Assembly (NCBI RefSeq): GCF_023705585.1
Contig: NZ_BOQE01000001.1
Location: 3,318,710 to 3,382,709, forward strand
DNA from: Collibacillus ludicampi
Lineage (GTDB): Bacteria > Bacillota > Bacilli > Tumebacillales > BOQE01
DNA length: 64,000 nucleotides
Reading direction: 5' to 3'
A model generated the notes under the pieces. It saw only the letters and a program-made list of their open reading frames with translations, was not told the DNA's origin and ran no database searches. A program made the translations under genes and the position numbers. This document shows positions 16,291-45,363 of the stretch, in pieces. The number at the start of each line of letters is the position of its first letter. Position 1 is the stretch's first letter.

Positions 16291-19188
16291 ATGGCCAAGC
16301 AAAGCTTCATACTGACAGACGTTCTAAATAAAAGGGTTATCTCGATCTTTCTATTCAGTTTACTCGTTCTATCACTTTCCATTGTCTTTTATCCTTACCT
16401 GCCCAAACATCTCTCTAATTATCCAGCTCTCCATGCACTTTGGGAGCTTTTATCGATTCTAGCGAGTGTGTTGATTTTCACCATTGGCTGGCACTCATAT
16501 CCATTTAACAAATCTCCAGTTGTTTTGCTTATTTCGGTTCCATTTCTAGAGGTCGGATTGTTGGATTTGGCTCATATATTGTCCTATCTTGAAATGCCTG
16601 ATTGGGGCATTCTCAATTCTCCCCAAAAATCGATTTACTTTTGGTTGTGGGCTCGTTCGGTTGAAAGCATATCGATTCTGGTCGTGCTCTTTTGGCCTTG
16701 GCAACGATCACAACCCCCTTGGTTTAAAAGATCCCTACTCTTGATTTGTTTTTCATCCTTATTTTTGATTTTGGGGATTATGTATTTTGGGGAAAACTAT
16801 CTTTCCAATGTTTTTCATGAAGATGATGGATTTATCCGGTTTAAGCAAGGAATGGAGTTGGGTGTTATCTTGTTACATCTCTGGGCGGCCGGGTTGGTGT
16901 TACGGCGAGATGAACTTCCCAGAATTTTGCGATGTCCATCCATTTTTCTCTTTATCTGGATTGCAGGAATCGGAGAAGTGTTTTTCATGCTCTATCAAAC
17001 GGTTAACGATGCTCTGAATCTCCTAGGTGATGTATATAAAGCCGTTGCAAACGGATTTCTGCTGCAAGCCATTTTGACACATGGCATACGCTATCCTTAT
17101 GAACGACTGAAACGATCGGAACAAAAAAGAATGAATCATGAACAACAGTTAAAGACCATTCTTGACCACACGGAGGAAGCCATACTAGCAACGGATCCGC
17201 TTGGCAAAATTCAAATTGTAAATCCTATGGCTGCAAAATTGGTTGGTTTACCATCGGAACAGTTGATTGGAAAACCTATAGACGATATTTGTCAAATCTA
17301 TCACACATTATCGGGGGAAGATTGCACCTATAAATTGATCCAAGCCATACGAAATCAAGAAAAGTGGGAGATTCCCCCCACTCTTTATTTGAAAGACCGG
17401 AGTGGAAACCAAATTCCCGTTTTACTGCAAATCACCATTCTTTCGCAATCCGATTCCGTTCCAATCGGAGCCATTTTCACTCTACGTGACTTGACAGACA
17501 AAAAACGTTATGAAATGCAAGAGATGCTGTCAACAAGAATTCTGGAAAACATGTCAGAAGGGGTGATCATCACAGACCGAAACCGATCAATTGTTTCAGT
17601 CAACCAAGCGTTTACAAATATTACTGGATACAAACAAGAAGAAATACAGGGAAAGACACCGAAAATTCTGGCTTCCGGCATTCATAACCGGGAATTTTAC
17701 CAAGAAATGTGGCAATCTTTGAACCAATACGGTATGTGGCAAGGAGAAATTTGGGATCGAAAGAAGAGTGGTGAGTTTTTTCTGGCAGAAGTAACCATAA
17801 CAGCTATTAAAGACGAAACCGGATTCGTCACACATTTTGTAAGTTTTTTAAAAGATATCACTCTAAAAAAACAGATGGAGGAACAAATCCGTTTTCAAGC
17901 TTTTCACGACCCTTTAACTGGACTGTCCAATCGTTCCACGTTTCTTGCGAAACTTGAGGAAGCCATCATCGAAGCTGAACGAACGGGAAAAAAGCTGGCT
18001 GTCATCTTCTTGGATTTAGATCGGTTTAAACAAATTAATGATAGCTTGGGGCACGAGGCGGGTGACCGTTTATTACAGAAGATTGCAGAACGCTTGCTTC
18101 AGGGAGTTCGAGGGTCTGATTGTGTTGCTCGATTCGGTGGTGATGAATTTGTCGTCCTTGTCTCTGGATTTTCGGAACCTCATGAAGCGAAATTGGTTGC
18201 ACACCGCATATTAGCAGAGATTGAGCAACCATTTAATTTGTACGGCCGGCCATATTTTATTGGGGCTAGCATTGGGATTAGCCTGTACCCAAAGGATGGA
18301 ACCGATCAGGATGCGTTAATTCAAAATGCTGATCTCGCCATGTATCGGGCAAAAGAAAGTGGAAGCGGAGTTGTATTCTACGATGTCGAAATGCAGGTAT
18401 CAAACACCAAACGAATGAGGCTTGAAACACTGTTGCGGAAATCGATTCAGAGTCCTGATTTTGAACTGCACTATCAACCTCAATTTCATGCGCAAACGGG
18501 TGAGATCATTGGAGTTGAAGCATTGATTCGCTGGAGACCGGAAGGAAGTGATCCGATTCCTCCTGGCACGTTTATTCCAATCGCCGAAGAAACCGGATTA
18601 ATCAAGCCGATTGAACGCTGGGTGTTACAAACTGCTTGTCGGCAATTTTCAGAATGGCAGAGTAAACTGAAACGACCGATTCGTCTAGCGGTAAACATTT
18701 CTACATCACAATTTCAACAGAGCCATTTTGTTGATCATGTGAAAGAAGTTCTACGAATAACCCACATGAAACCGGAATTATTAGAATTAGAAATAACAGA
18801 GAGTGTGTTTATGAATCACCCTGAAGAAGCAATACACACGATACGTTCATTGAAAAAATTAGGTGTTCGAATTGCTCTTGACGATTTTGGTACAGGATAT
18901 TCATCCCTGCGCTACCTACAAGATTTTCCGGTGGACACTCTCAAGATTGACCGTAGCTTCATTCAAACCATCGAAAAAAGCCAAGCAACGTTCTCAATCG
19001 TCAAAGCGATTCTTCAAATGGCACACGATTTAAGGATTGAGGTGATCGCTGAAGGAATCGAAACACCCCAACAAAGGAACGTTTTACAACGTCTGAATTG
19101 TGAAGGCCTTCAGGGTTTCCTGCTCAGCCCAGTATTAACGGTTACTGAAATATTGGAATTATTGTTGAGCGAAAAAAGCGCATTGTAG
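16291..19188 (+). CDS. MASE3-PAS-PAS-GGDEF-EAL cyclic-di-GMP enzyme
   Basis: 965 residues. Residues about 15-270 form a multi-helix MASE3-type membrane sensor (LDLAHILSYLEMPDW, FWLWARSVESISILVVLFWP). Two PAS domains follow (about 285-400, ILDHTEEAILATDPLGKIQI; about 410-525, ILENMSEGVIITDRNRSIVS). The GGDEF domain has an intact RFGGDEF with an upstream RGSD inhibitory site, and the EAL domain has VEALIRW, LELEITESVF, DDFGTGYSSLRYL and EVIAEGIET, so both cyclase and phosphodiesterase activities look possible. It should adjust c-di-GMP, and so motility versus attachment, in response to a membrane or redox signal. The ATG has only a weak GCGAGGGAC site. Confidence 0.93.
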   Translation: MAKQSFILTDVLNKRVISIFLFSLLVLSLSIVFYPYLPKHLSNYPALHALWELLSILASVLIFTIGWHSYPFNKSPVVLLISVPFLEVGLLDLAHILSYLEMPDWGILNSPQKSIYFWLWARSVESISILVVLFWPWQRSQPPWFKRSLLLICFSSLFLILGIMYFGENYLSNVFHEDDGFIRFKQGMELGVILLHLWAAGLVLRRDELPRILRCPSIFLFIWIAGIGEVFFMLYQTVNDALNLLGDVYKAVANGFLLQAILTHGIRYPYERLKRSEQKRMNHEQQLKTILDHTEEAILATDPLGKIQIVNPMAAKLVGLPSEQLIGKPIDDICQIYHTLSGEDCTYKLIQAIRNQEKWEIPPTLYLKDRSGNQIPVLLQITILSQSDSVPIGAIFTLRDLTDKKRYEMQEMLSTRILENMSEGVIITDRNRSIVSVNQAFTNITGYKQEEIQGKTPKILASGIHNREFYQEMWQSLNQYGMWQGEIWDRKKSGEFFLAEVTITAIKDETGFVTHFVSFLKDITLKKQMEEQIRFQAFHDPLTGLSNRSTFLAKLEEAIIEAERTGKKLAVIFLDLDRFKQINDSLGHEAGDRLLQKIAERLLQGVRGSDCVARFGGDEFVVLVSGFSEPHEAKLVAHRILAEIEQPFNLYGRPYFIGASIGISLYPKDGTDQDALIQNADLAMYRAKESGSGVVFYDVEMQVSNTKRMRLETLLRKSIQSPDFELHYQPQFHAQTGEIIGVEALIRWRPEGSDPIPPGTFIPIAEETGLIKPIERWVLQTACRQFSEWQSKLKRPIRLAVNISTSQFQQSHFVDHVKEVLRITHMKPELLELEITESVFMNHPEEAIHTIRSLKKLGVRIALDDFGTGYSSLRYLQDFPVDTLKIDRSFIQTIEKSQATFSIVKAILQMAHDLRIEVIAEGIETPQQRNVLQRLNCEGLQGFLLSPVLTVTEILELLLSEKSAL

Positions 19189-19348: not shown

Positions 19349-19419
19349 GTCGTTGGGGAGTGGAGATACAAAGTGAGATTTTCCGCTCAAACGATTGACA
19401 GTTGCTTCAATAAAACTAA

Positions 19420-19677
19420 GTGACTTTTGGGTGGGGTGTATCGCTTTGCAGCGCAGAGGTGAGTGTGTGAGACACCGACTTTGGAGATCGTCTCACTTCC
19501 TTTCGGATGTAAAAGGGTATATGCATTGCGTGTAATAGCGACTTTGAAGGTCGTCTCGCAACATATGATTATAATTCCATGCGAGACGACCTTCACGGAG
19601 CATAAGCGCAATGCATATACCCGCTGAAACGACCTCCACGGAGCGCGAACGCAAAGCATGCGCCCACCAAGCTACAC
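19420..19677. repeat. Nested hairpin element, copy A
   Basis: A two-level long inverted repeat. Outer arms begin GTGACTTTTGGGTGGGG...GCTTTGC and end GCAAAGC...CCCACCAAGCTACAC. Inside sits a second hairpin with perfect 15-bp arms GGGTATATGCATTGC (19515-19529) / GCAATGCATATACCC (19608-19622), an asymmetric internal loop, and a further perfect 15-bp stem GAAGGTCGTCTCGCA (19546-19560) / TGCGAGACGACCTTC (19580-19594). No protein is encoded. Related copies are at 19775-19907 and 45105-45327. Confidence 0.85.
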
Positions 19678-19678
19678 A

Positions 19679-19717
19679 TTTTCAAGGGAGCCACCCATGC
19701 CGCAAGCGGCACCATCA
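19679..19717. repeat. Conserved tail segment after hairpin A
   Basis: TTTTCAAGGGAGCCACCCAT then GCCGCAAGCGGC (small hairpin) and ACCATCA. It recurs at 19911-19949 after hairpin B and at 45006-45044 before hairpin C. Confidence 0.8.
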
Positions 19718-19774
19718 GAGGATGAAAAGTTTCTTGTGTGGGTAGTCAGATTTAAGCCCGCCACATGAGATATA

Positions 19775-19907
19775 GTGACTTTTGGTTGGATGTAATCACT
19801 TTGCAGCGCAGAGGTGAGTTGAAGGTCGTTCCGCAACATCTGTTTATAATGCGGGCGGAACGACCTTCATCGAACCCAAGCGCAAAGTGATACATCCAAC
19901 CAAGCAC
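19775..19907. repeat. Nested hairpin element, copy B
   Basis: The simplest copy. Outer stem TTGGTTGGATGTAATCACTTTGC-type arm (to 19804) pairs with 19882-19903; the internal loop has AGCGCAGAGGTGAGTT (19805-19820) on the 5' side and ATCGAACCCAAGC (19869-19881) on the 3' side; the inner stem is GAAGGTCGTTCCGC / GCGGAACGACCTTC; the apical loop is about 20 bases. Compared with A the outer and inner stems differ by paired changes. Confidence 0.85.
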
Positions 19908-19910
19908 TAG

Positions 19911-19949
19911 TTTTCAAGATTGCCACCCATGCCGGATGGGTGGCACCAT
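19911..19949. repeat. Conserved tail segment after hairpin B
   Basis: TTTTCAAGATTGCCACCCAT then GCCGGATGGGTGGC and ACCATA. Same segment as at 19679, with a changed small hairpin: CCACCCAT-GCCGG-ATGGGTGG. Confidence 0.75.
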
Positions 19950-20110: not shown

Positions 20111-20410
20111 ATGGTCAAACTTATCGCGATTTATAAAAAGCCGGAAAATACTGAGGAATTTGATCGCCATTACTATGAAGTACATGCTCCATTAGCGGAA
20201 AAGATGCCTGGCCTCATCAAATTGGAAGTGAATAAAATCTTCGGTACGCCTGCTGGAGAGAGCGATCTTCATTTAATCGCCGAGATGTATTTCGAGACGA
20301 AGGAAGCGATGATGAACGCGTTATCTTCACCGGAGGGCCGCGCAGCAGGAAAGGACTTAATGGGATTCGCAGGAAAACTGGTTACCATGCATTTTGCTGA
20401 AGTCGTGTAG
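20111..20410 (+). CDS. EthD-family small protein
   Basis: 99 residues, one ferredoxin-like EthD domain: VKLIAIYKKPENTEEFDRHY at the start, HYYEVHAPLAEKMPGL with the conserved His pair, and EMYFETKEAMMNALSSPEG. EthD-type proteins occur in ring-degradation operons and are thought to act as small enzymes or accessory proteins in handling reactive ring products; the exact role is unknown. It is the first gene of the operon, with a GAGGAGGAATTG ribosome site, and is followed without a gap by a thioesterase gene. Confidence 0.85.
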   Translation: MVKLIAIYKKPENTEEFDRHYYEVHAPLAEKMPGLIKLEVNKIFGTPAGESDLHLIAEMYFETKEAMMNALSSPEGRAAGKDLMGFAGKLVTMHFAEVV

Positions 20411-45004: not shown

Positions 45005-45044
45005 GTTTTCAAGGTAGTCCCCCATGCCGCAAGCGGCACCATCA
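45005..45044. repeat. Conserved tail segment before hairpin C
   Basis: TTTTCAAGGTAGTCCCCCAT, GCCGCAAGCGGC and ACCATCA, as at 19679-19717. The linker that follows to 45104 also resembles the A-B linker (ATGAAA, TTTGCTTGTG, CTGCCACA). Confidence 0.78.
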
Positions 45045-45104
45045 AATGAAATTTGCTTGTGAGGAAAAAGAAGCTCAGTCTGCCACAAGCAATGGGGTTG
45101 ACAT

Positions 45105-45327
45105 CTGGGTGGGTCGTGTCGCTTTGCAGCGCAGAGGTGAGTTGAAGGTCGTTCCGCTTCCATTGGCTGTATTAGGGGCATATGCTTTGCGCGTATAGCG
45201 ACTTTGAAGGTCGTCTCGCAACATTCCTTTATTATTATAAGCGAGACGACCTTCACGGAGCATGAGCGCAAAGCAACGACCTTCATCGAACCCAAGCGCA
45301 AAGCGATACACCCACCCAAGCACTAAC
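45105..45327. repeat. Nested hairpin element, copy C
   Basis: Outer arms CTGGGTGGGTCGTGTCGC... (45105-45127) / GCAAAGCGATACACCCACCC (45298-45320). Type-I loop AGCGCAGAGGTGAGTT (45128-45143) / ATCGAACCCAAGC (45285-45297), stem GAAGGTCGTT / AACGACCTTC. A whole type-II hairpin sits in its loop: GCTTTGCGC (45184-45192) / GCGCAAAGC (45266-45274) and GAAGGTCGTCTCGC (45206-45219) / GCGAGACGACCTTC (45241-45254). It lies just upstream of dprA. Confidence 0.85.
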
Positions 45328-45363
45328 TCTCAAGCACTAATTTTCAAATAAGGAGGAACTGAG

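Follow-up and report, generated by a model that had tools for sequence, protein, structure and literature searches.

Nested-hairpin units dispersed in Collibacillus ludicampi are probable non-autonomous derivatives of an IS110-family insertion sequence

Introduction

What kind of element forms two long hairpin-in-hairpin structures side by side in the genome of Collibacillus ludicampi, and by which route may it have spread? The window analysed here is a stretch of 64,000 nucleotides (contig NZ_BOQE01000001.1, positions 3,318,710 to 3,382,709, forward strand), and in its interval 19,420 to 19,949 (the A/B interval) an earlier note had described two adjacent copies, A and B, of a nested hairpin with compensatory changes. 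A palindrome resembling a miniature inverted-repeat transposable element (MITE), a target of a transposase of the repetitive extragenic palindrome (REP) type and a structured non-coding RNA had been offered as explanations. Here, we report that these hairpins belong to a large family of units which, judging by their sequences, are probably non-autonomous, MITE-like derivatives (satellites) of an insertion sequence (IS) of the IS110 family, whose DEDD transposases are guided by a bridge RNA. The units are filed as IS110-derived because of their ends. As a partner was not found in the same genome, the claim concerns derivation and the likely mode of movement rather than current activity.

A dispersed family of units

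With the A/B interval as query, BLAST returned 172 matches in the C. ludicampi genome, and a covariance model built from 20 copies, with A and B types pooled, recovered at least 150 units there, all with E below 1e-16. A third copy in the window (model hit at 45176) is outside this list of 150, and the family total is therefore higher. The earlier note had set the bar for a family at more than ten scattered copies with supported covariation, a figure that the genome far exceeds. The units group into 118 clusters at a spacing of 3 kb, or 132 at 700 nt; they are intergenic, lie all around the chromosome in many unrelated gene contexts and are, like MITEs, short, multi-copy, non-coding and dispersed. 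All 18 multi-unit clusters (700 nt) are confined to a single strand, none being mixed. Nested units are frequent, an A-type hairpin being found inside the loop of a B-type or another A-type hairpin, with a constant left junction (CGC, then TTCC) and a variable right one.

In a strict-filter scan of 200 genomes of the class, a set that includes no genome of the same family, C. ludicampi alone reached E 1e-6, and a less stringent scan across the order added a single match, in the genome G004. Plasmids, phages and viral contigs held no match. In Rfam the window produced no match above the gathering score, only weak chance matches with E up to 5. A pattern of the right arm run against genome contigs yielded eight single matches in unrelated taxa (seven Microbacterium and one Elusimicrobia metagenome-assembled genome) and was set aside as chance.

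The ends of the units are those of IS110 elements

When the flanks of many copies were aligned, the left boundary fell between RTAG and YCCNYCATGCCGCAAGCGGCGCCATCAGAGGATGAAAAG and the right boundary at TTTTCAAGRTAG. The typical left end reads RTAG followed by YCC..CATGCCGC..GCGGCRCCATCAGAGGATGAAAAG and holds a small hairpin of its own, and RTAG is shared between tandem units. A left end was located within 330 nt of 99 of the 132 clusters, against 4 of 230 random windows, and a right end near 84 of the 132, against 26 of 230. On the target side a TTTTCAARRTAG-like sequence lies upstream of the left end while the other side is random, some of the left flanks in this comparison being the right ends of neighbouring units.

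The left-end segment was the sole part of the query to match other genomes. By similarity it occurs in seven genomes, the own and six from different genera (lowest E among the foreign ones 1.7e-6), and as an exact pattern in 14 of 399 genomes of the class, the reversed control scoring 0 in any listed genome. The genome G006 harbours two IS110 copies, 99.8% identical, which start with TAGACCTCCATGCCGC and end with TTTTCAGGATAGAC (right end ATATTTTCAGGATAGAC) and whose flanks diverge beyond the left-end motif; since copies this similar start and end at them, both end motifs lie inside the IS. The transposase of G006 carries both IS110 domains, PF01548 and PF02371. In the autonomous copies examined, which come from related genera, the DEDD transposase starts about 240 nt past the left end and is 62–99% identical to the G006 query, and in seven of these copies right-end candidates (TTTTCAGGATAGA, TTTTCGGGATAGA or TTTTCGGGGTAGA) were found downstream of it. 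The right end is nearly the same in the autonomous relatives (TTTTCRGGRTAGA) and in the units here (TTTTCAAGRTAG), in the same order and orientation.

The bridge-RNA region of the autonomous copies reads CAGGATAGAAT, CGGGATAGAAT or CGGGGTAGAAT, compared with CAGGATAGA, CGGGATAGA or CGGGGTAGA at the element's own right end, and the identical sequence, followed by AT, is contained in their noncoding region. The presumed bridge RNA of these relatives thus contains a guide that covaries with the own right end, which is the behaviour expected of a bridge-RNA donor guide (PMC11208160). One autonomous locus (L220) shows a head-to-tail junction of right end and left end resembling the arrays of C. ludicampi. 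The Bacilli subgroup of IS110 to which these elements belong (L182, L184, L219-L223, L226, L228, L230) has a terminal hairpin at the left end and a well conserved presumed bridge RNA, in which direct comparison with each right end makes the donor guide legible. By this comparison, the present units have the two ends of an IS110 element and, between them, a body of a different kind.

The left and right ends do not form an inverted repeat, and RTAG alone stands on both sides, for which reason the units are called MITE-like and not strict MITEs. Insertion of IS110 elements without target duplication has been reported (PMC11187229). The proposal of a MITE-like palindrome is in this way borne out and made specific by the IS110-family ends.

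Layout of the copies in the window

The arms and loops of A and B are present where the earlier note had placed them, and the features of the interval are as follows, all on the forward strand.

19419-19678, +: unit A, a chimeric or truncated element body with no left end upstream; it comprises a B-type outer left arm (19419-19464), an A-type left part (19464-19494), a linker (19497-19514), the inner hairpin (19515-19622) and an A-type outer right arm (19623-19678)
19515-19622, +: inner hairpin of A, a nested module (stem 19515-19530/19607-19622, inner stem 19545-19560/19580-19595; covariance model score 130.3 bits)
19679-19690, +: right end of unit A, TTTTCAAGGGAG (consensus TTTTCAAGRTAG), IS110-type
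19691-19729, +: left end of unit B, CCACCCATGCCGCAAGCGGCACCATCAGAGGATGAAAAG, IS110-type with its own small hairpin
19730-19773, +: spacer S from left end to B hairpin, conserved among B-type units
19774-19909, +: hairpin of unit B, with outer stem, asymmetric internal loop (GAGGTGAGTTG / CATCGAACCC), inner stem and A+T-rich apical loop
19911-19922, +: right end of unit B, TTTTCAAGATTG
19923-19949, +: partial left end (CCACCCATGCCGGATGGGTGGCACCAT) belonging to a third, decayed unit

Because the outer left arm is B-type, the outer right arm A-type and no left end precedes it, copy A looks like a recombined or truncated copy rather than a clean unit. The TTTTCAAG...ACCATCA segment that had been seen after each copy spans a junction of units, where the right end of the first meets the left end of the second. 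Upstream, the interval is flanked by a MASE3-PAS-GGDEF-EAL gene (16291-19188, +) and downstream by an EthD-domain gene (20111-20410, +) preceding an operon that, judged solely by translations of its open reading frames (ORFs), looks like one of thioesterase, enoyl-CoA hydratase and CoA-ligase genes.

The most canonical copy of the window is the third, at about 45018-45350, with a left end, a B-type hairpin holding an A-type hairpin in its loop, and a right end:

45006-45017, +: TTTTCAAGGTAG directly upstream of the third copy, a target sequence or the remnant of a right end
45018-45060, +: left end of the third copy (TCCCCCATGCCGCAAGCGGCACCATCAAATGAAA)
45105-45325, +: B-type hairpin, its loop holding an A-type hairpin (covariance model hit 45176-45281, 98 bits)
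45326-45351, +: degenerate right end, followed by a ribosome-binding site and start codon

The product of the gene whose start codon adjoins this copy begins MHEEKGYILWLSRVPGIGAIRLKRL and looks like a putative DprA/Smf protein.

Strength of the fold and paired changes

The nested hairpins with compensatory changes are real. A folds to a minimum free energy of -118.5 kcal/mol, its dinucleotide shuffles to -74.7 (z -9.4), and B folds to -73.8 kcal/mol (z -11.4). In 136 distinct copies, standard pairs fill 95.8% of the cells and both sides have changed at 18 of 30 pairs, whereas structures slid along the alignment pair in only 30–50%. Cells changed on both sides numbered 348, against 96 in shuffles (0 of 500 shuffles as high), these counts being of cells and not of events, inflated by subfamilies and taken from an alignment that was fitted to the structure. 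The exceptions to pairing comprise 81 G-U and 43 A-C cells, but these fall on 20 pairs each, and 20 of the G-U cells stem from one subfamily; they favour neither pairing as RNA nor pairing as DNA. The linker hairpin of nested units (CCTTT...AAAGG), considered as a third helix, was rejected, as the two halves of one linker pair no better than halves combined across linkers.

Hairpin elements in other genera

In G342 and G378, two genomes of one genus in another family, left ends without a transposase were found. Seven hits of a hairpin with the right end TTTTCCGGGATAG occur in 217 kb of contigs, most with a left end and some in head-to-tail arrays, one hit being the flank of a neighbour. Seven hairpins from these hits keep the loop strands GCGAGTT and TGTYTG, while in the outer stem both partners have changed at 7 of 18 pairs. 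Covariance model R1 does not match them; their kinship is argued from the ends and the loop motif. Read in this manner, the G342/G378 elements are an independent recurrence of IS110-ended hairpin elements in another genus. They make up a second transposase-less set (loci L231, L237, L240, L241, L243) that has the left end in common with the present units, a hairpin nested in a hairpin and a similar right end, with several elements per 200 kb in the contigs read.

G004, from another family of the same order, has a dispersed hairpin family of its own (L074-L088, e.g. L076:1563-1667). The outer repeats of this family are long and imperfect (CTGAATCCGTGACGATAGTCACC ...), and its internal loop resembles that of the present element. 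Against the model the G004 hairpins score at most 49 bits; they contain GCGAGTTTG / TGTTTGAGC, and their ends are different. The motif GYGASTT recurs in the internal loop of the A and B types, of G004 and of G342/G378, a recurrence that is only suggestive, the pattern having been picked after the sequences were seen.

Discussion

A model of IS110 satellites

We propose that each unit has kept the left end and right end of an IS110 element, which serve as donor sequences for recognition at the right end–left end junction, and that the nested hairpin would have replaced the transposase gene and the bridge RNA. In this reading the units have the look of parasites on an RNA-guided transposon. An autonomous element would supply recombinase and bridge RNA in trans, and the units would be circularised and inserted beside TTTTCAARRTAG-like sites, always in one orientation, which would produce head-to-tail arrays. 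A 22-bp donor functions with bridge RNA supplied in trans (PMC11208160), and cargo flanked by intact ends is mobilised by transposase and noncoding RNA provided in trans (PMC11187229); these results make a unit with just two ends a plausible substrate. The likeliest role of the hairpin would be that of a cruciform holding the left and right ends close to each other for the RuvC-like recombinase, or the loop may serve as a ligand of recombinase or bridge RNA.

A number of observations weigh against this model. No intact partner was found in the C. ludicampi genome, where the longer IS110 genes are of other subgroups and the right subgroup is represented by one decayed C-terminal fragment of 65 residues, and this genome has no match to the bridge-RNA region of G006. 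The right-end motif is only 12 nt long, and a degenerate search for it gives chance matches in about 11% of windows. With same-family genomes absent from the compared set, neither an empty site nor recent transposition was demonstrated, and the hairpin family of G004 resembles the present hairpin, yet lacks recognisable IS110 ends. Since the IS110 genes left in the genome are decayed or of other subgroups, the present units are probably relics or awaiting a partner. Among its IS110-type elements (L039, L042, L040), one is interrupted by an in-frame TAA and accompanied by a truncated sister, and another is frame-broken.

In a more far-reaching version, which we offer tentatively and hold to be rather doubtful, the units would represent a new class of transposon satellites in which the functional part is the hairpin, conserved internal loop included. 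The hairpin might bind the IS110 recombinase, mimic part of the bridge RNA or, as a cruciform, bring the two ends together, such that minimal elements hijack the RNA-guided recombinase more efficiently than its own IS does. The strands of the loop are similar to TGGCGA / TTCGAGC in the 5' hairpin of the bridge RNA.

Alternative explanations

REP and GTAG palindromes are known insertion sites of IS110/IS1111 elements (PMC1525189; PMC5896051, QMITE2), and with its small hairpin after RTAG the shared left end might have been a REP-like target hit by the IS110 elements of relatives, the units resembling REPs and bacterial interspersed mosaic elements (BIMEs) or being MITEs of some other transposase. 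This is largely refuted and seems improbable. The G006 motif lies within the 99.8% identical IS copies and their flanks differ beyond it, and the left-end segment as REP target was dropped once these copies were compared; the right end matches as well, in correct order and orientation. The target of a REP-type transposase suggested by the earlier note is likewise disfavoured, as no Y1 transposase was detected in the genome (no PF01797 match, control genomes being positive) and the segment taken as its mark consists of a right end and a left end. A different objection is that the hairpin could be a functional RNA, namely a cis-acting stabiliser of mRNA, an RNase III site or a small RNA, spread on mobile ends and kept for the host. 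We regard this as unlikely, although pairing is strongly conserved, the GYGASTT motif recurs in the hairpins of C. ludicampi, G004 and G342/G378, and between co-directional genes, as delimited by plain, unannotated ORF calls, 63 clusters point the same way as the genes and 22 the other way (p 1e-5). Orientation in convergent and divergent gaps also follows replication, with 32 clusters on the leading and 15 on the lagging strand, and transcription is thus not separable from replication. The equal numbers of pairs with G-U and A-C exceptions, the many unrelated gene contexts and the lack of an Rfam match argue against it further. For the structured RNA originally envisaged, the pairing is conserved but does not favour RNA over DNA. 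Known families, a match to any of which was to have overturned the original proposal, comprise no matching RNA family and an IS family related at the ends only.

Pairing might also have arisen as a by-product, template switching in replication correcting the arms and the loops offering easy points of insertion or recombination for nesting, with no selection on the structure. Such an origin would accord with the abundance of both-side changes and the rarity of one-sided intermediates, with the fixed left and variable right junctions of nesting and with linker hairpins that pair no better than cross-combinations. The internal loops are nevertheless unpaired, asymmetric and recognisable in three genera, where correction of the arms would erase them, and we give this explanation little credence, somewhat less than the functional RNA. 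Derivation from IS110 remains the reading that we prefer.

Relation to known systems and significance

With IS110 elements that use bridge RNA or seekRNA (IS621, ISEc21; PMC11208160, PMC11187229) the units share left end, right end, orientation, tandem right end–left end junctions and insertion at a short motif, the match of guide and donor being seen in the autonomous relatives. They differ in lacking a transposase gene and a recognisable bridge RNA, no guide matching the own right end being seen on inspection of their noncoding body, in their nested-hairpin body and in a copy number well above 100. Bacterial MITEs (QMITE1/2 of Coxiella, PMC5896051; reviewed in PMC10969869) are similarly short, multi-copy, intergenic and strongly foldable, without a recognisable gene and with ends matching an autonomous element, but have the terminal inverted repeats of DDE transposons in place of asymmetric IS110 ends. 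QMITE2 is a mere target of IS1111 and not its derivative, and so differs from the units here. REP/BIME sequences mobilised by the RAYT (Y1 HUH) transposase (PMC2817692) are also dispersed intergenic palindromes, clustered and beside a GTAG-like tetranucleotide; unlike these, the present units are head-to-tail and not alternating, have IS110-type ends and reside in a genome without a Y1 transposase. In the open literature searched, no description of natural MITE-like satellites of the IS110 family was found, and a review devoted to the MITEs of prokaryotes is silent on IS110.

Read as a non-autonomous element of IS110 type, the unit is a variant within known families with a conserved structured core. 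The internal loop common to hairpins of several genera provides a concrete, testable handle. IS110 elements are bridge-RNA recombinases under development for programmable DNA insertion. If the proposed derivation is true, nature would already split donor ends from recombinase and guide, at a copy number above 100 per genome, and the natural insertion sites, which run to hundreds, would constitute a readable record of donor and target rules.
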